A program made the position numbers and the translations under genes. Positions 3,720 to 62,868 of a stretch of DNA of 63,023 nt are shown here, piece after piece. The stretch lies in the NCBI GenBank assembly GCA_902770965.1, contig CACXUY010000031.1, positions 1 through 63,023 of the forward strand. Reading direction: 5' to 3'. The stretch comes from an uncultured Lachnospiraceae bacterium (lineage in GTDB: Bacteria > Bacillota > Clostridia > Lachnospirales > Lachnospiraceae). A model generated the notes under the pieces. The model saw only the letters and a program-made list of their open reading frames with translations. It did not search any database and was not told the origin of the DNA. Each line of letters begins with the position of its first letter. Positions within the stretch are counted from its first letter, which is position 1.

Positions 3720-6653
3720 TTATTTCGCTTCCATCCAGTTGCCGCCGCTGTGGACTTCGACGACCAGCGGAACCGCCAGGCTCGCCGCAGCTGTCATTTC
3801 CTGCTCAAGTATCTTCCCGGCAAGCTCAGCTTCGTCAGCCGGAGCCTCGATCAGCAGCTCATCGTGAACCTGCAGTACGATACGGGCATCGAGCTTCTCT
3901 TTACGAAGCCGCCTGTCCACGCGCAGCATCGCGATCTTCATGATGTCTGCAGCGGTGCCCTGAATAGGACTGTTCATGGCGACGCGCTCGCCAAATGACC
4001 TCATATTAAAATTGGAGGACTTTATCTCCGGCACCGGCCGCCTTCTCCCATACAGGGTCTCAACAAATCCTTGCTGTCTCGCCTTCGCCACCTGACTGTC
4101 CAGGAATGCTTTCACGCCGGGATAGGTCGCGAAATATCGCTGTATATAATCGGCGGCTTCCTGCCTTGTGATGGACAGGCCTTCGCTGAGACCAAAGGAG
4201 CTGATGCCGTAGACGATCCCGAAATTTACTGCCTTCGCGTTGCGCCGAAGCTCGGGCGTCACATCCTCAAGAGGAACGTGGAAAACCTGAGACGCAGTGA
4301 TCGCATGTATGTCCCTTGCCTCGTTGTAGGCGGATATCAGCCTCTCATCCTGCGACATAGCCGCCAGAATCCTCAGCTCTATCTGGCTGTAATCCGCATC
4401 TACGAAGACGCAGCCGTCCTCCGGCACGAACATAGCGCGTATCTCACGCCCCAGGTCTGTGCGAACAGGGATATTCTGAAGGTTAGGCTCTGTGCTGCTG
4501 ATGCGTCCGGTAGCCGTCACCGTCTGATTAAATGTGCCTCTGATGCGCCCATCTTCATCTATATAGTTTCTCAGGCCATCCGCGTAAGTAGATTTCAGCT
4601 TCGCATGCGTCCTGTATTCCAAAATCTGGCTTATGACCGGGACAAATGGAGCGAGCTTCTCCAACACGTCCGCCGCAGTCGAATAACCCGTCTTTGTCTT
4701 TTTGCCTCCGGGCAGTGCCATCTCTTCAAAGAGCACCTCGCCCAGCTGCTTTGGAGAATTGATGTTGAATTTATGCCCCGCCTGTTCGTATATGTCCGCC
4801 TCAAGCTCCTCTATCCTCTCGCTCATGCTGCGTCCATATTCCTCAAGCGCCGCGCCATCGACACGTATTCCGGCCTTTTCCATCCTGTCGAGACTGAAAA
4901 TGAGGGGCATCTCTATTTCATAAAACAGCTTGTCCATGCCAAGCTCCGCAAGCTTCGATGTCAACAGCGGCGCAGCCGAAAATGGCACGGCAGCCGCGCA
5001 GCGGGCGAGCATCTCAAGCCCGTCTCTTCCTATGTCCTTCGGCCTCGTCTTACCTACGATCTCCTTCTCTGCAGGCAGCATCTCCCCAAGGAAATCCACC
5101 GCGACATCGTCCCATCCATAGCTATGCTTCAAAGGATTTATCAAATATGCCGCGACGCTGACATCCAGCCATCGTGAGTCTTCTTTGAAAGGAAGGACTT
5201 TCAGCATATCCTTGAGATTCAGGGCTGCCAGATGCTCGGCTTTCTCCGCAGCCTTCTCTAGCAGCGGAAGCAGATCAAAGGCTTCTATCACCGTATCGGG
5301 AATAAATATTGCTTTTTGCCCATCACATACAGCGGTTCCAAGATAAGTATCCGCCACGTTCACGGACTGAATAGCAACCATAGTATTCCGCGGCCGGCCA
5401 AGCGATAGGTCTTGCGGCTGGTCTTGCGATTGGTTTTGAGGCTGGTCTTGCGGCTGGTCTTGCGGCTGGTCTTGCGGCTGGTCTTGCGATTGGTTTTGAG
5501 GCTGGTCTTGTCGCCGGTCTTGCGATAGGTCTTGCGGCTGCCTGTCCTGTCTGCCTTGCTCCAGCCTTTGCGCCAGCTTCTCCAGCTCTGCTTTGGCTTC
5601 GGACACGTCAGCCACTATCCTGACCGGACATGCTCCCGCTGACAAGAATCCTCCCTCTTCACCGTGGCTTACAGCCTCAGAACCGCCTTGAGTACCCGTT
5701 TCATATTCCGCCCCGGCTTGGCTCTTGATCCCGGCAGAACCCTCATTCACCGAGCCGACGCCGGAACCATCAGAGGACTTCGATATATTCGAAAAACGCC
5801 GCAGAAAAGATTTCATGCCCAAGGTCTTTATGAATTCATATGCTTTTTCCGTATATGGACTGGTGAACGCGGCATTTTCATAGTCAAAATCCACCGGCGC
5901 GTCCTGACAGATCCGGGCAAGCTTCAGGCTGAGAAGGGCAAGCTCTTTGTTCGCCTCGAGATTTTTCTTCGCTCTCGGTGGTTTCACCTCATCCAGGCTT
6001 TCATACACACCATCTACGCTGTGATATGCCTGAATAAGGGCAGTTCCCGTCTTCTCACCTATGCCGGGCACACCGGGAATATTGTCCGACGAGTCGCCCA
6101 TAAGTGCCTTAAGCTCGATGAATTCCTCAGGCGTGACGCCATAGGTCTCCTTCACATCGTCCGCGAAATAATTCTCATATATTGTCTGTCCTTTTTTCGT
6201 CTTGGGTATGCAGATACGCACCTTTTCGGAAGCCAGCTGCAGCAGATCGCGGTCGCCGGATAAGATGACCACATCGAGGCCTTCTCTCTCTGAACGGGCC
6301 GCTATTGTGCCGAGTATGTCGTCAGCCTCGTACCCCGGAAGCTCCAGCACCGGTATCCCGCAGGCTTTCAGCAGATCCTTAGTGAGCGGGACCTGTTCAT
6401 GCAGCTCTTCCGGCATGCCCTTGCGTGTTCCTTTATAATCCGAATACATATCATGACGAAATGTCGGTTCCCTGCGGTCAAACGCGACCGCAAGATAACC
6501 CGGCTTCTCATCATCGAGAACCTTGAATAATATATTAAGGAAACCGTACACGGCGTTAGTATGCCTTCCTTGTGAGTCCGTCATCTCAGGGATGGCATAG
6601 AATGCGCGGTTCAGGATGCTATGTCCATCCACAAGAACGATTTTTCCGTTCAT
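3720..6653 (-). CDS. polA: DNA polymerase I
   Basis: The 977-residue protein carries an N-terminal 5' nuclease domain (GKIVLVDGHSILNRAFYA, GYEADDILGT, ILSGDRDLLQL, GVPGIGEKTG), a degenerate 3'-5' exonuclease domain, and a C-terminal polymerase domain with motif A DADYSQIELR (about residue 755), motif B RRNAKAVNFGIVYG (about 810) and motif C VHDELLIE (about 930). The proofreading DxE residues are not visible (the strand reads MVAIQSVNVADTY), so proofreading is probably absent, as in Bacillus and Taq enzymes. Between nuclease and exo domains, about residues 369-419, a QDQP repeat encoded by a 12-bp tandem unit forms an unusual linker. The ATG at 6653 has GGAGG 8 nt upstream; the in-frame ATG at 6668 overlaps that site. 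coaE follows. Confidence 0.97.
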   Translation of the reverse strand: MNGKIVLVDGHSILNRAFYAIPEMTDSQGRHTNAVYGFLNILFKVLDDEKPGYLAVAFDRREPTFRHDMYSDYKGTRKGMPEELHEQVPLTKDLLKACGIPVLELPGYEADDILGTIAARSEREGLDVVILSGDRDLLQLASEKVRICIPKTKKGQTIYENYFADDVKETYGVTPEEFIELKALMGDSSDNIPGVPGIGEKTGTALIQAYHSVDGVYESLDEVKPPRAKKNLEANKELALLSLKLARICQDAPVDFDYENAAFTSPYTEKAYEFIKTLGMKSFLRRFSNISKSSDGSGVGSVNEGSAGIKSQAGAEYETGTQGGSEAVSHGEEGGFLSAGACPVRIVADVSEAKAELEKLAQRLEQGRQDRQPQDLSQDRRQDQPQNQSQDQPQDQPQDQPQDQPQNQSQDQPQDLSLGRPRNTMVAIQSVNVADTYLGTAVCDGQKAIFIPDTVIEAFDLLPLLEKAAEKAEHLAALNLKDMLKVLPFKEDSRWLDVSVAAYLINPLKHSYGWDDVAVDFLGEMLPAEKEIVGKTRPKDIGRDGLEMLARCAAAVPFSAAPLLTSKLAELGMDKLFYEIEMPLIFSLDRMEKAGIRVDGAALEEYGRSMSERIEELEADIYEQAGHKFNINSPKQLGEVLFEEMALPGGKKTKTGYSTAADVLEKLAPFVPVISQILEYRTHAKLKSTYADGLRNYIDEDGRIRGTFNQTVTATGRISSTEPNLQNIPVRTDLGREIRAMFVPEDGCVFVDADYSQIELRILAAMSQDERLISAYNEARDIHAITASQVFHVPLEDVTPELRRNAKAVNFGIVYGISSFGLSEGLSITRQEAADYIQRYFATYPGVKAFLDSQVAKARQQGFVETLYGRRRPVPEIKSSNFNMRSFGERVAMNSPIQGTAADIMKIAMLRVDRRLRKEKLDARIVLQVHDELLIEAPADEAELAGKILEQEMTAAASLAVPLVVEVHSGGNWMEAK
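5395..5546 (-). repeat. 12-bp tandem repeat within polA
   Basis: The + strand unit GGTCTTGCGGCT and close variants repeat about ten times, encoding QDQP/QNQS/QDLS blocks in the interdomain linker. The reading frame is kept because the unit is a multiple of three. Confidence 0.85.
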
Positions 6654-11232: not shown

Positions 11233-11313
11233 GACTGCATGGTCTACATGGCAGCGCCACGCATATAATGCCCTGCGGATTGCTCCGCGCTGTGCGCTCT
11301 CGCAATCCACAAC
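11229..11313 (+). repeat. Diverged R2-like repeat
   Basis: The sequence CGCATATAATGCCCTGCGGATTG followed by TGCGCTCTCGCAATCC resembles the R2 subtype B core (TATATAAGTCTCCGCATGG, GCTTCGCACTCC) but is clearly diverged. Confidence 0.35.
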
Positions 11314-11346
11314 ATGTATTCGCATTTTTCGTCGGCTTCGCCGACC

Positions 11347-11368
11347 CATGCTCATACATGGTTTTTTT
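11347..11368 (+). terminator. Intrinsic terminator after sstT
   Basis: CCATG/CATGG stem directly followed by TTTTTTT, with a stronger GTCGGC-TTC-GCCGAC hairpin just before it at 11331-11345. Confidence 0.6.
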
Positions 11369-11460
11369 ATATGTTTTTATATTATACTTTTCTTATTCTA
11401 AAGCCTGCTCCGTATTTGCGGTTTTCATCCCCATCAGTTATCAGGCCATCGCGCGCCAAT

Positions 11461-16134: not shown

Positions 16135-16225
16135 TTACTTTAAAAGTCCGCCCACGCGAAGCACGGAGCCATGCGGAGTCTTATATGCATGGTGTTGTCG
16201 GCTGCCCGGCATGCGAGTCTACTTT
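16135..16225 (-). repeat. R2 interspersed repeat, subtype B
   Basis: Inverted copy of the element at 59546-59641: TTACTTTAAAAGTCC, GCGAAGCACGGAGCCATGCGGAGTC, TTATATGCATGGTGTTG, GGCATGC. Confidence 0.7.
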
Positions 16226-55398: not shown

Positions 55399-56511
55399 TC
55401 AACCGATAAGTGCGTCCCATCGTATCATCTCTATCAATTCTTTCGCCTGAGCTTCCGTAAGGGCAGACTGCTCGCCAGACTCCTTATATATATGTGCGTG
55501 TATTGACAACATGGCTTTTGGGTTATCAATCAATATAATAGTTGTCGGTCCTAATTCATTTCCTGCTGCATCATTGTATATACATGGACGAATGGCAATA
55601 TTTGCGGTGATCCCCTGTCCACTTATATATTCACTTTCCTCAAAATCAGAGGCATCGCCAACGTTTATCATAGCAGTGTTTAACACGCCTTTCTGACACC
55701 GATCAAGCGAAAACAAGATATCTTCACCACTATTTAGGCGCACAATGGTTTCGATATGAAACGACCCATCATCATAATAATAGCCACTAAATATCCCTTC
55801 GTCTTCCTTATACAGTAGGGTTTCTGCCCCCAAAAGCGCACACAGTTCTTCAGAGTTGCAAACTATTGTCATGGTATTATGATGTTCCAAACCATATCTT
55901 TCCAGTATATCATCGAGCTTATCTTCCATTGCTTCATCTGTACAATCATACAAATCACACCATTCCTGATACCATTCCGCCTCACCATTCGGACACACTG
56001 CACATAAAACTGGATGCTCAGAGATATAATCCCAGTAAAAATCCACCCATTCCATCTGAGCCTCATACTCAGGCGATCCCCTATATCCAGCAAGGGAGAT
56101 ATATTCTCTTTCTGTCACTACATTGACCACCTCTTCATGAGGTAAAGGTACTGTCTCGCCTTCTTTAGGTTCCACATCACCGCCGTACTCGTTGGTTGGC
56201 CAGACCGTAACCGTTTTCTCCTCGGACTCCAGTGTATGGCCTCCAGATGCTGCCCTAAACCCCAAGAATCCGGTTGCATAAGCTGCTATCCCGAAGATGC
56301 CAAGTACAGCGGCAGCAGATGCAGCAGCAATAAGCCTTCTCTTTATGGCGTGCGGATGCTTCTTTTGTATGGGTAGAACAACGAACGTTTCGACGGCATA
56401 CTCCTGCCCTTCCATAGTTTTGCGGATGCGTTCCCACAGAATCTTACTCTCCTCCTCGTCCATATTGAATGAATCATAGGCATCCCGCATCTTAGATTCC
56501 CATTTTTCCAT
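55399..56511 (-). CDS. Membrane anti-sigma-like protein
   Basis: 370 residues. The cytoplasmic N terminus of about 75 residues (WESKMRDAYDSFNMDEEESK) is followed by one membrane helix (RLIAAASAAAVLGIFGIAAYATGF at about 60-83) and a large acidic extracellular domain. It follows the ECF sigma factor, so it probably is its regulator, as in other Clostridia. The extracellular part (WVDFYWDYISEHPVLCAVCP) is unassigned. GGAGG lies upstream of ATG 56511; the longer frame runs through an R2 repeat. Confidence 0.8.
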   Translation of the reverse strand: MEKWESKMRDAYDSFNMDEEESKILWERIRKTMEGQEYAVETFVVLPIQKKHPHAIKRRLIAAASAAAVLGIFGIAAYATGFLGFRAASGGHTLESEEKTVTVWPTNEYGGDVEPKEGETVPLPHEEVVNVVTEREYISLAGYRGSPEYEAQMEWVDFYWDYISEHPVLCAVCPNGEAEWYQEWCDLYDCTDEAMEDKLDDILERYGLEHHNTMTIVCNSEELCALLGAETLLYKEDEGIFSGYYYDDGSFHIETIVRLNSGEDILFSLDRCQKGVLNTAMINVGDASDFEESEYISGQGITANIAIRPCIYNDAAGNELGPTTIILIDNPKAMLSIHAHIYKESGEQSALTEAQAKELIEMIRWDALIG

Positions 56512-56555
56512 ATTGCTGATTACCTCCGATATCTTTTTCCTAATATAGTTATTTG

Positions 56556-56645
56556 TTGTAAACCACATGCTTACGTCGCAGGCGCCACCAAGTATATAAG
56601 TCTCCGCATGGCTCCATGCTTCGCAATCCCGCCGCGCTAAGTACG
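56556..56645 (+). repeat. R2 interspersed repeat, subtype B
   Basis: GTAAACCACATGCTTACG, then TATATAAGTCTCCGCATGG, then CTTCGCAATCCCGCC. It separates the sigma factor gene from its anti-sigma gene. Confidence 0.75.
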
Positions 56646-56680
56646 AGCATGTACGCAAAAAATCATCCCTTTTGCATGCC

Positions 56681-57163
56681 TCATGATTCCAATATATTTC
56701 TCATTAGCTTTCTGGCCCGCAGCAATTGCGAGCGCACAGTTGAAGGACTAAGTGACAAGAGCCGAGCGATTTCATCCGTTGTCAATCCGTCGTAGTAGTA
56801 CAAGTACACGACTTCCTTATATTTGTCCGGAAGAGCAAGAATAGCGTCAGCGACTTCGCTATATTCCGTCTGCGCCTCTACCATAACCTCATGATCTTCG
56901 ATTCTCTCGTGTATCCTGTCCTTGCGCCTTAGAATATTCTTACATATGTTTGAAGCAGTAGTTATCAGCCATCCACGTTCATGCTCAGACGATTCGAACT
57001 CATTCTCCTTCTTGAACAATTTGATAAAAGTATCATGTACGGCGTCTTCGGCATCCGCCTTGTTTTTCAAGAAGGAGTAGCATAACCTATGGAGAGTTCC
57101 GGAATACTGCTTGTATTTCAATTCCATCTCTTGTTGTGTAAACATAGATCTGTCAACCTCCAT
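56681..57163 (-). CDS. ECF-type RNA polymerase sigma factor
   Basis: 160 residues. Region 2 (YSFLKNKADAEDAVHDTFIKLF and RGWLITTASNICKN) and region 4 (LPDKYKEVVYLYYYDGLTTD, EIARLLSLSPSTVRSQLLRA) are complete. Start could be 57163 or the ATG at 57145, which has GGAGG. It heads a sigma/anti-sigma pair and presumably recognises an envelope-stress regulon. Confidence 0.93.
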   Translation of the reverse strand: MEVDRSMFTQQEMELKYKQYSGTLHRLCYSFLKNKADAEDAVHDTFIKLFKKENEFESSEHERGWLITTASNICKNILRRKDRIHERIEDHEVMVEAQTEYSEVADAILALPDKYKEVVYLYYYDGLTTDEIARLLSLSPSTVRSQLLRARKLMRNILES

Positions 57164-59062: not shown

Positions 59063-59497
59063 TCAGGCAAGAAGCCCTTCCATATCCTCATCTTCCAACG
59101 TTATGATCCCATTCTCCAACAGTATCTTCTCCGCTCCTTCCACATCATCAACCCTGAATACCACATAGGCGCTTCCCTGCAGTGCCCCGGTAAAAGCGTA
59201 GACATACTCGATGTTGACGTTCGCATTCCCCAAAATCTCCAATATGCCCTTCAGAGCCCCTGTTTCGTCATTCATTTTTACCGCTATGACCGGAGTCTCC
59301 CTGATGATAGTGTCCCTGCCTAGCGAAGCTTTTGTCTTCTCCACGTCAGATACGATGAGCCTCAGAATCCCAAAATCCTTGGTCTCGGCAACGCTCAGCG
59401 CCCTCATATTGACCCCGGCTTCCGTAACGGCGGATATTGCCTTAAAAAGCGTACCGGGTTTATTTTCCAAAAAAGCCGATATCTGTGTAATAGCCAT
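59063..59497 (-). CDS. Tandem ACT-domain protein, copy 1
   Basis: 144 residues consisting of two ACT domains (QISAFLENKPGTLFKAISAV and PVIAVKMNDETGALKGILEI with NIEYVYAFTG). Such proteins are encoded beside phenylacetate-CoA ligases in anaerobes and probably sense an aromatic amino acid. It is about 85% identical to the protein at 60413-60847 by eye. It is 1.5 kb from paaK, separated by a gene on the opposite strand. Confidence 0.88.
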   Translation of the reverse strand: MAITQISAFLENKPGTLFKAISAVTEAGVNMRALSVAETKDFGILRLIVSDVEKTKASLGRDTIIRETPVIAVKMNDETGALKGILEILGNANVNIEYVYAFTGALQGSAYVVFRVDDVEGAEKILLENGIITLEDEDMEGLLA

Positions 59498-59545
59498 AAT
59501 GCTTCCTCCTTATTTTTTCTCATGCTTTTTCTCATGCTATGCCCT

Positions 59546-59641
59546 AAGTAAACCTGCATGCCAGGCAGCTGGCAACACCATGTATATAAGTCTCCGCATG
59601 GCTCCGTGCTTCGCACTCCCGCCACAGGGACTTTTAAAGTA
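59546..59641 (+). repeat. R2 interspersed repeat, subtype B, followed by a diverged second copy
   Basis: AAGTAAACCTGCATGCC, CATGTATATAAGTCTCCGC, GCTTCGCACTCCCGCC, CTTTTAAAGTAAAC. A second, shorter copy starts at 59637 (AAGTAAACCCACATGC) and runs to about 59700 as a tandem partner. The pair forms the leader of ACT copy 1. Confidence 0.75.
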
Positions 59642-59719
59642 AACCCACATGCTTACGTTCCAAGTACCACCATGCATATAAAGCCCTGAGGATTGCATCG
59701 TTTAAAAATGCATTTGCTC

Positions 59720-59748
59720 TTGTATAAACTAGTTATTCATGATATACA
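59720..59748 (+). promoter_or_regulatory. Possible promoter of the PPC-domain gene
   Basis: TTGTAT (59720-59725), 17-bp spacer, TATACA (59743-59748). Confidence 0.45.
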
Positions 59749-59818
59749 TTACCTTACATAGCTGGTACATCATTTTGAAAAAGCAAGTGATCATCTAATT
59801 TAACGGGGGGTAATCAAT

Positions 59819-60238
59819 ATGGAATACAAAAGATATGACAATGCCATTGTTCTCAGACTAGATCCGAATGAAGATATCGTCCAATCACTTTTACATCTGG
59901 CCGCAAAAGAGGATATCGCCCTTGCGATAATATCCGGGCTAGGCGCCATTGACGACTTTACAGTCGGGGTGTTCGACACCAAGAAAAAAATCTATCATTC
60001 AAATCATTTTGAAGGCGCATTCGAGATAGTATCTTTGACCGGCACCTTGACAAGACAAGAAGGCAAACCTTACCTGCACGTGCATCTGAGCGCGGGCGAC
60101 AAGGACGGGAAGGTCTTCGGAGGTCATCTCAACAGTGCCAATGTCAGCGCGACGGCAGAGATAGTAGTCAGCCTTATTCCCGGCTCAGTCGAAAGAGAAT
60201 TCAGTGATGCCATAGGGCTGAATCTGATGAAATTCTGA
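59819..60238 (+). CDS. PPC/DUF296-domain protein
   Basis: 139 residues. The whole protein is a PPC domain: AIVLRLDPNEDIVQSLLHLA, GLGAIDDFTVGVFD, LTGTLTRQEGKPYLHVHLSA and GGHLNSANVSATAEIVV; the HVH triad is the metal/ligand site. In bacteria it is a trimeric protein of unclear role, sometimes called DNA-binding by analogy with plant AT-hook proteins, though no AT-hook is present. It stands between two ACT paralogues on the opposite strand. Confidence 0.9.
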   Translation: MEYKRYDNAIVLRLDPNEDIVQSLLHLAAKEDIALAIISGLGAIDDFTVGVFDTKKKIYHSNHFEGAFEIVSLTGTLTRQEGKPYLHVHLSAGDKDGKVFGGHLNSANVSATAEIVVSLIPGSVEREFSDAIGLNLMKF

Positions 60239-60369
60239 GGCGCTATGTCCGGCTTGATATAAAATCGTCGGTCGTAGATAATACGTTCAGCCTGGTATTA
60301 TGTATCCGCCCCGAGAAGACATTTCAGCCTACGATAACACGTCTTATCAGATATTACATGTATGAAAGA

Positions 60370-60407
60370 AAACCGGTCTGCTGCAAGTTCAACAGACCGG
60401 TTTTTAT
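60370..60407. terminator. Bidirectional intrinsic terminator
   Basis: Stem AAAACCGGTCTG / CAGACCGGTTTT followed by T residues on the + strand and T-rich on the minus strand; placed between the convergent PPC and ACT genes. Confidence 0.85.
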
Positions 60408-60412
60408 AGGCT

Positions 60413-60847
60413 TTAGGCGAGGAATCCTTCCAGGTCCGCGTCGTTCAACGTTATAATACCGTTCTCCGCGAGGATCTTCTCCGCGTTTTCAACGTCATCG
60501 ACCCTGAACACCACATAAGCGCTTCCCATTATGGCACCGGTGAAGGCATAGACATATTCTATGTTCACATCTGCGTCCCCTAATATCCCAAGTATGCCTT
60601 TCAATGCCCCTGTTTTGTCATTCATCTTGACAGCTATGACCGGGGTCTCCCTTATCATAGTGTCCGCTCCGAGCGCAGCTTTAGTCTTCTCTACATCAGA
60701 GACGATAACCCTGAGTATTCCAAAGTCCTTGGTCTCAGCAACGCTCAACGCCCTCATATTTACTCCCGCGTCTGTGACAGCGGATATGGCTTTAAGAAGC
60801 GTACCGGGTCTGTTCTCCAAAAAAGCCGATATCTGAGTAATCGCCAT
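60413..60847 (-). CDS. Tandem ACT-domain protein, copy 2
   Basis: 144 residues, two ACT domains (QISAFLENRPGTLLKAISAV; PVIAVKMNDKTGALKGILGI). It is the copy nearest to paaK, 206 bp downstream on the same strand, so it is likely part of that transcription unit and of the phenylalanine-linked regulation. Ligand unproven. A GGAGG-type site precedes the ATG. Confidence 0.92.
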   Translation of the reverse strand: MAITQISAFLENRPGTLLKAISAVTDAGVNMRALSVAETKDFGILRVIVSDVEKTKAALGADTMIRETPVIAVKMNDKTGALKGILGILGDADVNIEYVYAFTGAIMGSAYVVFRVDDVENAEKILAENGIITLNDADLEGFLA

Positions 60848-60994: not shown

Positions 60995-61065
60995 CCTCCT
61001 CGAATCTTTCAGTGCAGTTTCAGTTAAGCTTTAGTGCGGCTTCCGCTAAGCTTTCAGTGCAGCCT
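60995..61065 (-). repeat. Decayed tandem copies of the paaK 3' end
   Basis: The paaK stop context CTGCACTGAAAGCTTA (minus strand) is followed by CCGCACTAAAGCTTA and CTGCACTGAAAGATT at about 23-bp spacing. Each copy repeats the last codons with a stop. Confidence 0.7.
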
Positions 61066-62358
61066 GCGTTTGTCTATCATGCGCACTGCCTTGCCCTCGG
61101 AGCGTGCTATGGACTTCGGAGCCACCAGATGGATCTTCGGTCCAATGCCAAGCATGGAGCGCATGGCCGCGTTGAGCCCGATCTCACGGCGCTGGATGTC
61201 GGCGATCTTATCCGAGAACATCTCAGGCGAAAGCTCAACATAGATATCGAAGGTATCCGTATTGTTCACCCTGTCGAGCACGATCTGATAGTTCGGCGTA
61301 TAGCCCTCGTTCAGAAGGACGGCTTCTATCTGGCTCGGGAAGACGTTGACGCCGCGGATGATCATCATGTCGTCGCTCCTTCCGAGCGGCTTCGTCATCT
61401 TGACATGCGTCCTTCCGCAAGAACACTTCTCCCTGGATAGTATGCAGATGTCTTTAGTCCTGTAGCGAAGGAGAGGGAAGCCTTCCTTGTCAAGAGAGGT
61501 GAAGACCAGTTCTCCCTTCGCTCCCTCCGGCAGAACCTCGCCCGTCTTAGGATCTATTACTTCAACATAGAAGTGGTCCTCGTTGATATGCATACCTGTC
61601 TGCTCCTCGCACTCGAAAGCGACGCCCGGACCGGAGATCTCTGTCAGGCCATAAATATCATAGGCCTTGATTCCCAGGCTCTTCTGTATGCTCTGTCTCA
61701 TCTCCTCAGTCCAGGGCTCTGCGCCGAATATGCCCGCCTTCAGCTTGTTGTCCTCAGGACGATAGCCCTTCTCCGCGAGAGTCTCACCTATATAAGCAGC
61801 ATATGAGGGAGTGCAGCAGAGGATCGTCGCGTTCAAGTCCATCATGAACTGAATCTGCCGGTCGGTGTTGCCGGATGACATGGGCAGTGTCAGACAGCCG
61901 ACCTTATGCGAGCCGCCGTTCAGGCCGGGACCGCCGGTGAAAAGACCATAGCCATAGCATACCTGGCATACGTCTTCATTTGTTCCGCCTGCAGCCATGA
62001 TCGCCCTTGCGCAGCACTCTTCCCAGATATCGATGTCATGCTGGGTGTAGAAGGCAACGACTCTTTTGCCGGTCGTCCCCGATGTCGACTGTATTCGGAC
62101 ACAGTTCTTGATGTCCGTTCCCAGAAGTCCGTAAGGATAAGCCTCCCTCAGGTCGTCCTTAGACAAGAACGGAAGCTTCTTGATATCGTCAATGCTCTTG
62201 ATATCAGAAGGCTTAACGCCCTTTTTGTCCATTAGCTTCTTGTAGTAAGGAACATTCTCGTACACATGCTTTACCTGACGCACGATCTTCTCGTTCTGGA
62301 TCTCCAGAATCTTTTCCCGTGAAGCTGTCTCGATTTCCTGTTGATAATAGTTTCCCAT
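61054..62358 (-). CDS. paaK: Phenylacetate-CoA ligase
   Basis: The 434-residue adenylate-forming enzyme joins phenylacetate (or a related aryl acetate) to CoA with ATP. Visible are the phosphate-binding QSTSGTTGKRVVAFYT (about residue 91), VCYGYGLFTGGPGLNGGSHK, YDIYGLTEISGPGVAFECEE (about 236) and the C-terminal RSDDMMIIRGVNVFPSQIE. Full length for anaerobic PaaK. The neighbour is a tandem-ACT gene. Its leader encodes a Phe-rich peptide and a terminator, so its expression appears controlled by the supply of charged tRNA-Phe. In gut anaerobes the enzyme can act with an aryl-pyruvate:ferredoxin oxidoreductase in either direction. Confidence 0.94.
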   Translation of the reverse strand: MGNYYQQEIETASREKILEIQNEKIVRQVKHVYENVPYYKKLMDKKGVKPSDIKSIDDIKKLPFLSKDDLREAYPYGLLGTDIKNCVRIQSTSGTTGKRVVAFYTQHDIDIWEECCARAIMAAGGTNEDVCQVCYGYGLFTGGPGLNGGSHKVGCLTLPMSSGNTDRQIQFMMDLNATILCCTPSYAAYIGETLAEKGYRPEDNKLKAGIFGAEPWTEEMRQSIQKSLGIKAYDIYGLTEISGPGVAFECEEQTGMHINEDHFYVEVIDPKTGEVLPEGAKGELVFTSLDKEGFPLLRYRTKDICILSREKCSCGRTHVKMTKPLGRSDDMMIIRGVNVFPSQIEAVLLNEGYTPNYQIVLDRVNNTDTFDIYVELSPEMFSDKIADIQRREIGLNAAMRSMLGIGPKIHLVAPKSIARSEGKAVRMIDKRRLH

Positions 62359-62433: not shown

Positions 62434-62480
62434 CAAAACGAAACAGGGTGCGGCACCGGTTGAAGTGCCACACCCTGTGT
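62434..62480 (-). terminator. Attenuator terminator in the paaK leader
   Basis: Minus-strand stem ACAGGGTGTGGCA / TGCCGCACCCTGT (13 pairs, one U-G wobble), 10-nt loop, then TTTCGTTTTG. It ends about 75 bp before the paaK start codon and 29 nt after the leader-peptide stop, exactly where an attenuator would lie. Confidence 0.85.
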
Positions 62481-62507
62481 GAATGGTCTCAATCTGCCGC
62501 ATCACAC
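62476..62507 (-). promoter_or_regulatory. Competing hairpin/antiterminator segment in the paaK leader
   Basis: Directly after the leader-peptide stop, GTGTGA (62502-62507) can pair with TCACAC (62477-62482), and the TGCGGCA in between (62495-62501) is perfectly complementary to the terminator's 3' arm TGCCGCA (62450-62456). A ribosome sitting on the stop codon would cover this segment. Confidence 0.65.
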
Positions 62508-62508
62508 T

Positions 62509-62595
62509 TTAGCATCGCAAATCAACCCTACCGTCATCGTCGGTAAAGCTAAAGAAAAAGCTAAAGCTAAATGCGAAGCTATGAGTCTTGTTCAT
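62509..62595 (-). CDS. Phe-rich leader peptide of paaK
   Basis: A 28-codon reading frame, ATG at 62595 to TAA at 62509, with AGGAAGG 8 nt upstream. Residues 7, 9, 11, 13, 14, 15 and 17 are phenylalanine (SFAFSFSFFFSF), a density like the E. coli pheL leader. The Phe codons end more than 30 nt before the stop. Followed by an antiterminator-like segment and a terminator. Too short for ordinary gene finding. Its probable role is to make transcription into paaK depend on the speed of Phe translation. Confidence 0.82.
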   Translation of the reverse strand: MNKTHSFAFSFSFFFSFTDDDGRVDLRC

Positions 62596-62639
62596 CTTGA
62601 AACCTTCCTATAAATGATAAATGAATTCATTCGACCTCT

Positions 62640-62723
62640 AAGTAAACCTACATGCCAAGCTTGGCACAACCATACTTTATAAGTCTCCGCGTGGCTCCGT
62701 GCTTCGCACTCCCGCCACGCTAA
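62640..62723 (+). repeat. R2 interspersed repeat, subtype B, inside the paaK leader
   Basis: AAGTAAACCTACATGCC, ACTTTATAAGTCTCCGCG, GCTTCGCACTCCCGCC. It lies between the promoter and the leader peptide, so it is transcribed. Confidence 0.8.
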
Positions 62724-62839
62724 CCGGTATTCGCACTTTCCGCCCGCTGCGCTGGCCCGCAGGTCATATGCAGCTGTCAGCCATAAGCCAAACCGCCTCT
62801 TTAACAAGACAGCCCTTTAAACTGCTACAGTTACGAAGT

Positions 62840-62868
62840 ATAATACTGCAACCCAACCGTGCTGTCAA
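62840..62868 (-). promoter_or_regulatory. Near-consensus sigma-A promoter of the paaK leader
   Basis: Minus-strand TTGACA (62863-62868, perfect), 17-bp spacer, TATTAT (62840-62845). Transcription would start near 62833, giving a leader of about 475 nt. The sequence from 62870 to the window end is AT-rich without a visible gene. Confidence 0.82.

Follow-up and report, generated by a model that had tools for sequence, protein, structure and literature searches.

The DNA upstream of a paaK-like gene in an uncultured Lachnospiraceae bacterium raises the question of whether phenylalanine shortage, sensed by a translating ribosome, could switch on a phenylacetate-CoA ligase, and what role such a ligase would then have. 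The window, i.e., the whole stretch of 63,023 nucleotides that was analyzed, is the complete contig C31 of the bacterium's genome (G000; 2.80 Mb, 78 contigs, 93.65% complete). The putatively regulated gene (61054..62358, minus strand) encodes an AMP-forming acyl-CoA ligase of 434 aa with matches to TIGR02155, PF14535, and PF00501 and with the PDB relatives 4r1l, 2y4o, and 2y27. Its TIGR02155 score was 503.8 bits, and because this is below the curated cut-off of 646.3 we call the gene paaK-like (paaK for short).

All features of the leader region lie on the minus strand. A sigma-70-like promoter site, TTGACA-17-TATTAT (62840..62868), was assigned on consensus, with 11 of 12 matches; seven promoter-like sites were found in the region, compared with a shuffle mean of 4.0. 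About 245 nt separate this site from the leader ATG downstream. A Shine-Dalgarno-like AGGAAGG (62603..62609) stands 7 nt before the ATG at position 62595, which opens a leader ORF of 28 codons, MNKTHSFAFSFSFFFSFTDDDGRVDLRC, closed by a stop codon (62509..62595). The ORF was identified by reading the frame, by the orthologous ORFs described below, and by a chance test, and its translation is predicted. Codons 7, 9, 11, 13, 14, 15, and 17 are Phe codons, giving seven Phe in the eleven regulatory codons 7–17 (62545..62577). A short ORF with at least seven Phe in eleven codons occurred once in the real window and in 0 of 200 first-order Markov windows. The locus thus has a ribosome-binding site followed by a short ORF, predicted to be translated, in which codons for a single amino acid cluster. 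The promoter, the 28-codon frame, its seven Phe codons within eleven, and the stop had all been named in the original prediction, and this observation is confirmed.

Between the promoter and the leader ORF sits a copy of a short interspersed repeat (62638-62718). Further copies were seen in the window at 59544-59625, 56581-56640, and 16156-16185, and elsewhere in the genome on contigs C49 (L039 2624-2686) and C16 (L211 2181-2237). The copies were 75–93% identical over 30–83 nt.

Conservation in relatives had been proposed as a check on the leader. A leader with the sequence MKHRTANFFFFFSFSFTGEDGKVSLLC, followed by a terminator, was found before paaK in genome G166 (L003 1226-1309; paaK 86% identical), and another, MKRDLYNNNFFFSFSFNFTDIGSKVDLLC, also with a terminator, before paaK in uncultured Lachnospiraceae RUG14002 (L047 1732-1821; paaK 89% identical). 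The Phe run and the hairpins were kept in both relatives, with a few compensatory changes. The length of the ORF and its C-terminal residues were similar in the window and these two relatives, which together make up only three orthologous paaK leaders. By eye, the promoter-like pair of the two orthologous leaders lies about 50–60 nt from the ATG, unlike the longer distance in the window. In a tree of 110 PaaK proteins and one paralogue, the window, G166, RUG14002, and G052 sequences grouped together with a support of 82. No leader was found before paaK in G052 (L002; paaK 87% identical); an aromatic TTG ORF there was not counted, as it lies in a T-rich tail upstream of the promoter-like site. 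At L021, a Phe-rich ORF forms part of a terminator tail and precedes a promoter-like site; it was attributed to chance, and so were the leader-scan matches at L057, L119, and L075.

A covariance model built from the three paaK leaders was run against 395 relative genomes under strict filters, with 8 candidates scored per genome. It returned 19 places in 18 genomes, i.e., two of the model inputs, five aromatic leaders, and 12 others. The 12 others were dropped because they look like terminator-only matches; their downstream genes were read in L195 and L206 only. Downstream domains of the five aromatic leaders were assigned by Pfam. In G153, a Trp-codon leader, MKNIRIANLFWWWRFTEKQ, precedes a trpB-like PALP gene (E 1.1e-7). 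Phe leaders were observed in G079 before prephenate dehydratase followed by DAHP synthase (MNSRANLKSASYFFFFAFTSSRCKGNL, E 0.001) and in G133 before chorismate mutase-prephenate dehydratase (MNRHSFAFYSFVFTFSNKKLKAFVL, E 0.007). Mixed aromatic leaders in G218 (MNRKYNFTYYYFYFNFTDRK, E 0.0025) and G228 (MKEFDNSTIYFYWFFFAGLTE, E 0.075) stand before DAHP synthase and prephenate dehydrogenase (tyrA). Because the E-values of the G079, G133, G218, and G228 leaders are weak (0.001 to 0.075), the case for these four is made by their codons and the genes that follow. A further Phe/Tyr leader, MRSIVKGFGFYGYFYRKVDACSSPS, with its own antiterminator and terminator, heads a ligase-iorA-iorB-paaK-ACT run at L052.

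In Rfam, no family exceeded its gathering score at the window leader, and a search extended to E 10 returned just mir-183 and ctRNA, both far below the cut-off. The L040 and L047 leaders likewise had no Rfam match. Elsewhere in the window, Rfam detected a Clostridiales-1 RNA (11268-11406, minus strand, 55.2 bits). In G325, a weak aromatic short ORF, MTMQSRKVFCFYFTRHPIGTWVL (L178 4780-4851), is flanked by a tRNA gene and paaK and was not counted; this genome gave no match to prephenate dehydratase.

An intrinsic terminator of 15 pairs, followed by the U-rich tail TTCGTTTT, lies between the leader ORF and paaK (62443..62478). The original prediction was right about its presence before the gene, but had given the stem 13 pairs. 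An inner pause hairpin, UUUACCG/CGGUAGG (62527..62547), was found by folding and overlaps the end of the Phe run. The antiterminator, identified by folding and by alignment of the arms, has the 5′ arm GGUUGAUUUGCGAUGCU (62511..62527), which ends in the leader stop codon, and the 3′ arm GGUGUGGCACUUCAACC (62458..62474), which equals the terminator 5′ arm plus loop. An inner helix of the antiterminator, GUGUGA/UCACAC (62477..62507), was folded in the window but shows poor pairing in both remaining rows of the MAFFT alignment A5. A short hairpin and a competing pairing had been foreseen correctly; the partner is the terminator 5′ arm with its loop and not, as had been proposed, the 3′ arm. Pairing with the 3′ arm gave a 7-nt match in the window, for which neither orthologous leader showed a counterpart by eye, and the 5′ arm was preferred.

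For the stalled state, the RNA that was folded ran from the edge of a ribosome placed on the regulatory codons to the end of the terminator loop. In this state the terminator 5′ arm and loop paired with the end of the ORF in all three paaK leaders, and the 5′ arm was likewise paired upstream in the five related leaders. The mean upstream pairing of the 5′ arm was 0.58–0.88 with the ribosome stalled versus 0.18–0.54 with the ribosome at the stop codon, and it was lower at the stop in 8 of 8 leaders folded; part of this difference follows from the set-up, as a ribosome at the stop leaves less RNA free. With no ribosome present, the values ranged from 0.18 to 0.80, with strong upstream pairing in G079 (0.80) and G133 (0.76). 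Fold z-scores of the free stretch spanned −1.35 (G153) to −6.40 (G079) and were unremarkable in G153, G218, and G133 (−1.35 to −1.88). Once the terminator 3′ arm was present, folding of three leaders favored the terminator at every ribosome position tried. The switch must therefore be kinetic, since the terminator wins at equilibrium as soon as its 3′ arm has been made. Kinetic control is usual for attenuators.

Covariation was counted on a few sequences, with the arms set out by hand. In the outer antiterminator helix (window, G166, RUG14002, and G153), three of six pairs showed two-sided changes and 22 of 23 cells were paired, while the core antiterminator showed none in eight pairs, with 32/32 cells paired. 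The pause hairpin had a two-sided change in one of seven pairs (C-G to U-A; three sequences, 21/21 cells paired), and the terminator in one of 11 (U-A to C-G; four sequences, 42/42 cells paired). These compensatory changes, few as they are, support the predicted terminator, pause hairpin, and antiterminator. An antiterminator that would exclude the terminator, and that would be freed by stalling, is thus predicted from folding and limited covariation.

Firmicutes had been expected to use mostly T-boxes, and other relatives indeed carry Phe T-boxes before paaK. Four Rfam T-boxes (RF00230) above the gathering score stand directly before paaK, at L055, L059, L064, and L078 (the last with 94.0 bits against a gathering score of 93). 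Codons were read at what we take to be the specifier location in stem I. The specifier of these four is UUC (Phe), placed right after GAA in three of them and with one further base between in L078. A Tyr-type (UAC) T-box precedes a ligase-symporter-iorA-iorB-paaK-ACT run at L077. A similar run at L101 has a UUC (Phe) T-box (93.1 bits) some 540 nt upstream of its ligase. Another Tyr-type (UAC) T-box (L059 4678-4923) stands directly before a sodium:solute symporter gene (5000-6556) that adjoins the T-box-paaK unit; this symporter is a candidate arylacetate transporter.

No T-box was found at paaK in the window's genome, either with Rfam or by looking in the window for a stem I, a specifier, and a T-box antiterminator. 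T-box antiterminator models were also applied to 80 named loci and another 90, and no more T-boxes turned up at paaK; model R1 was run on both sets and R2 on the 90 only, and seven of the eight R1 matches in the 80 were model inputs. Several survey matches fell on ordinary genes, i.e., tyrS by reading at L076 (L015 looks alike), anthranilate synthase at L138 and leuA at L165 by Pfam, and threonyl-tRNA synthetase by reading at L189. The match at L144 was counted among those away from paaK, a weak match 290 nt before paaK at L178 is not a T-box, and L024 had no Rfam match.

A Phe/Tyr sensor, either leader or T-box, was present at paaK or at the operon head in 10 of 170 paaK-type loci (80 named plus sets of 30 and 60 unnamed, overlaps not removed), and no RNA sensor was detected at the remainder, i.e., at most loci. 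On the paaK tree, the leader and T-box labels each require at least two changes, and as few changes were needed in 61 of 500 label shuffles for the leader and in 56 of 500 for the T-box. On contig C37 of the window's genome (L129 1501-1762, ORF from 1842; L194), a T-box reading Trp (UGG) was seen before a trpB-like gene. Set beside the Trp leader of G153, the T-box on this gene is, from sequence, a putative second T-box/leader exchange.

The neighborhood of paaK bears on what its product does. Downstream of paaK lies a gene for an ACT-domain-pair protein (ACT_8; 60413..60847, minus strand), and a second such gene follows (59063..59497, minus strand), both from domain searches. Over 300 nt the two ACT_8 genes (window 59063-60847) share 77% identity, and a PCC-domain gene separates them on the opposite strand. 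Further along the window (55399-57163, minus strand), we noted an ECF-type sigma factor; the gene after it has no NCBIfam match and possibly encodes its regulator. Among the 80 named loci, an ACT gene lies within 1200 nt after paaK in 63 and iorB within 1500 nt before paaK in 40, with some cases lost to contig ends in both counts. The cultivable Butyrivibrio proteoclasticus P18 (L085) is one carrier of iorAB-paaK-ACT. The window's genome carries iorA and iorB on another contig (C49), together with a further acyl-CoA ligase, and no leader or T-box was detected upstream of this ligase-iorA-iorB operon.

Profile searches of the same genome gave no match to prephenate dehydratase (PF00800), chorismate synthase (PF01264), prephenate dehydrogenase (PF02153), TrpA (PF00290), or DAHP synthase (PF00793); in control searches of reference genomes, the first four were found in 14 of 14 and PF00793 in 11 of 14. 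Five such absences are difficult to attribute to the roughly 6% of missing sequence, unless the genes are linked. Prephenate dehydratase was found in 378 of 397 family genomes. In a subset of 40, PF00800 was present in 36 and missing in G000, G402 (L052), G410 (L060), and G420 (L070). Two shikimate-dehydrogenase-like (AroE-like) genes were seen in G000, on C16 (L211) and C11 (L212), despite the five undetected chorismate-route families; by reading, one adjoins an AroD-like gene and the other adjoins transporter-like genes. Prephenate dehydratase is present in two of the three genomes whose paaK has a leader (G166 and RUG14002). A genome can thus have the leader without having lost the classical route, and a simple link between the leader and loss of pheA was rejected. 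As read from sequence, the genomic context and the undetected chorismate route point to Phe synthesis as a putative role of paaK.

Taken together, we regard it as likely that paaK is controlled by ribosome-mediated attenuation and that its product is a Phe-biosynthetic phenylacetate-CoA ligase, predicted to be switched on by Phe shortage and to feed Phe synthesis from phenylacetate. With plentiful Phe, the ribosome would reach the stop codon and cover the antiterminator 5′ arm, and the terminator would form. With scarce Phe, the ribosome would stall in the Phe run and leave this arm free; the antiterminator would then capture the terminator 5′ arm and loop, and RNA polymerase would read into paaK. 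PaaK would convert phenylacetate to phenylacetyl-CoA, the indolepyruvate oxidoreductase (IOR) would carboxylate this reductively to phenylpyruvate, and an aminotransferase would yield Phe. The ACT proteins may provide feedback through amino acid binding. Two independent sensor types predict induction when Phe is short, which agrees with Phe supply and not with degradation. The interpretation given in the original prediction is supported by the conservation of the leader, by the related leaders before pheA, DAHP synthase-tyrA, and trpB-like genes, by the five undetected chorismate-route families, and by the presence of IOR with two acyl-CoA ligases.

A different role for the same switch deserves the most weight among the alternatives: the attenuator could work as described and control salvage, recycling, or detoxification of arylacetates instead of net Phe synthesis. 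In Bacteroides, IOR is linked to the conversion of Phe to phenylacetate, according to PMC13285125; G166 and RUG14002 retain prephenate dehydratase; and the substrate of PaaK and the direction of flux are predictions made from sequence. Induction by Phe/Tyr shortage, as predicted from two unrelated sensor types, is nevertheless the sign expected for supply, the related leaders stand on aromatic biosynthesis genes, and the window's genome gave no detected match to the chorismate-route families tested, so we consider this role unlikely. It is very improbable that the Phe run arose by chance as a low-complexity stretch and that the hairpin is an ordinary terminator ending a transcript from upstream; similar-looking aromatic ORFs at L021 and L002 are indeed chance cases in T-rich terminator tails, but the simulated windows produced no such run, the leader is conserved in two relatives with compensatory changes, and related leaders with other aromatic codons stand before matching genes. 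Equally hard to credit is the reading that the ORF encodes a functional hydrophobic microprotein and that the RNA structure is of secondary importance; the ORF is alike in length and C-terminal residues in three relatives, but the conserved C-terminal codons make the antiterminator arm and the remaining peptide is variable save for its aromatic codons.

Attenuation of paaK in response to Phe belongs to a known class of mechanism. Leader-peptide attenuation of pheA (by pheL) and of pheST is established in enteric bacteria. These systems have in common with the window the Phe-codon run, the pause hairpin, an antiterminator that uses the terminator 5′ arm, and a terminator before the gene. They target a chorismate-route enzyme or an aminoacyl-tRNA synthetase, whereas the window target is an acyl-CoA ligase, and their hosts are enteric, whereas the window's host is a relative of Lachnospiraceae and its leader has no Rfam family match. 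The T-box (RF00230) senses uncharged tRNA and stands on orthologous paaK genes with a Phe-type specifier in four relatives; at the window paaK, which has no T-box, sensing is instead predicted to proceed through translation of the leader. In Firmicutes, His leader peptides replace T-boxes on hisS genes, according to PMC2965389; there, as at paaK, a regular leader peptide stands where other members of the gene family have a T-box, but these cases concern histidine and an aminoacyl-tRNA synthetase, whereas the present family concerns aromatic amino acids and a ligase. A leucine-rich attenuator peptide of Staphylococcus aureus, reported in PMC5794164, is also an amino-acid-rich Firmicutes leader but serves branched-chain amino acid synthesis. 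Aerobic phenylacetate catabolism (paa genes; PMC13186573) has the ligase family in common with the window PaaK. Induction by Phe shortage would not be expected of a degradative gene, and the linked genes in the loci analyzed here are iorAB, the symporter, and the ACT proteins.

To our knowledge, the genes and control of the route from phenylacetate to Phe are little defined. Synthesis of Phe from phenylacetic acid in rumen anaerobes goes back to Allison 1965, as cited in PMC7356843. Since AMP-forming ligases favor acyl-CoA synthesis, IOR with such a ligase may be biosynthetic in Bacteroides, as PMC13285125 suggests. Leader attenuation before paaK had been thought undescribed; in line with this, neither the control of paaK by a leader or T-box nor aromatic leader peptides in this lineage appeared among the matches listed in the open-access PMC literature, a body of text outside which most subscription journals and bioRxiv lie. 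Within the open-access literature searched, the new elements are therefore paaK as the target and the T-box/leader exchange on paaK.

On balance, we favor, with less confidence than for paaK itself, a broader picture for Lachnospiraceae-type anaerobes. In this picture, a family of leader-peptide attenuators would serve all three aromatic amino acids and alternate with T-boxes as the control element of a given gene. The paaK-IOR-ACT-symporter set would be a regulated pathway from arylacetates to Phe and Tyr, needed by the window's organism, which would lack the chorismate route. If this is true, the reach of leader-peptide attenuation would widen to include aromatic amino acids in a lineage noted for its T-boxes. 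Having two unrelated types of RNA sensor for Phe shortage on a single ligase gene would also provide a genome-based marker to distinguish biosynthetic from degradative PaaK/IOR clusters. Such a marker would matter for the interpretation of gut and rumen metagenomes, where genes of this kind are often assigned to the degradation of amino acids or aromatics.
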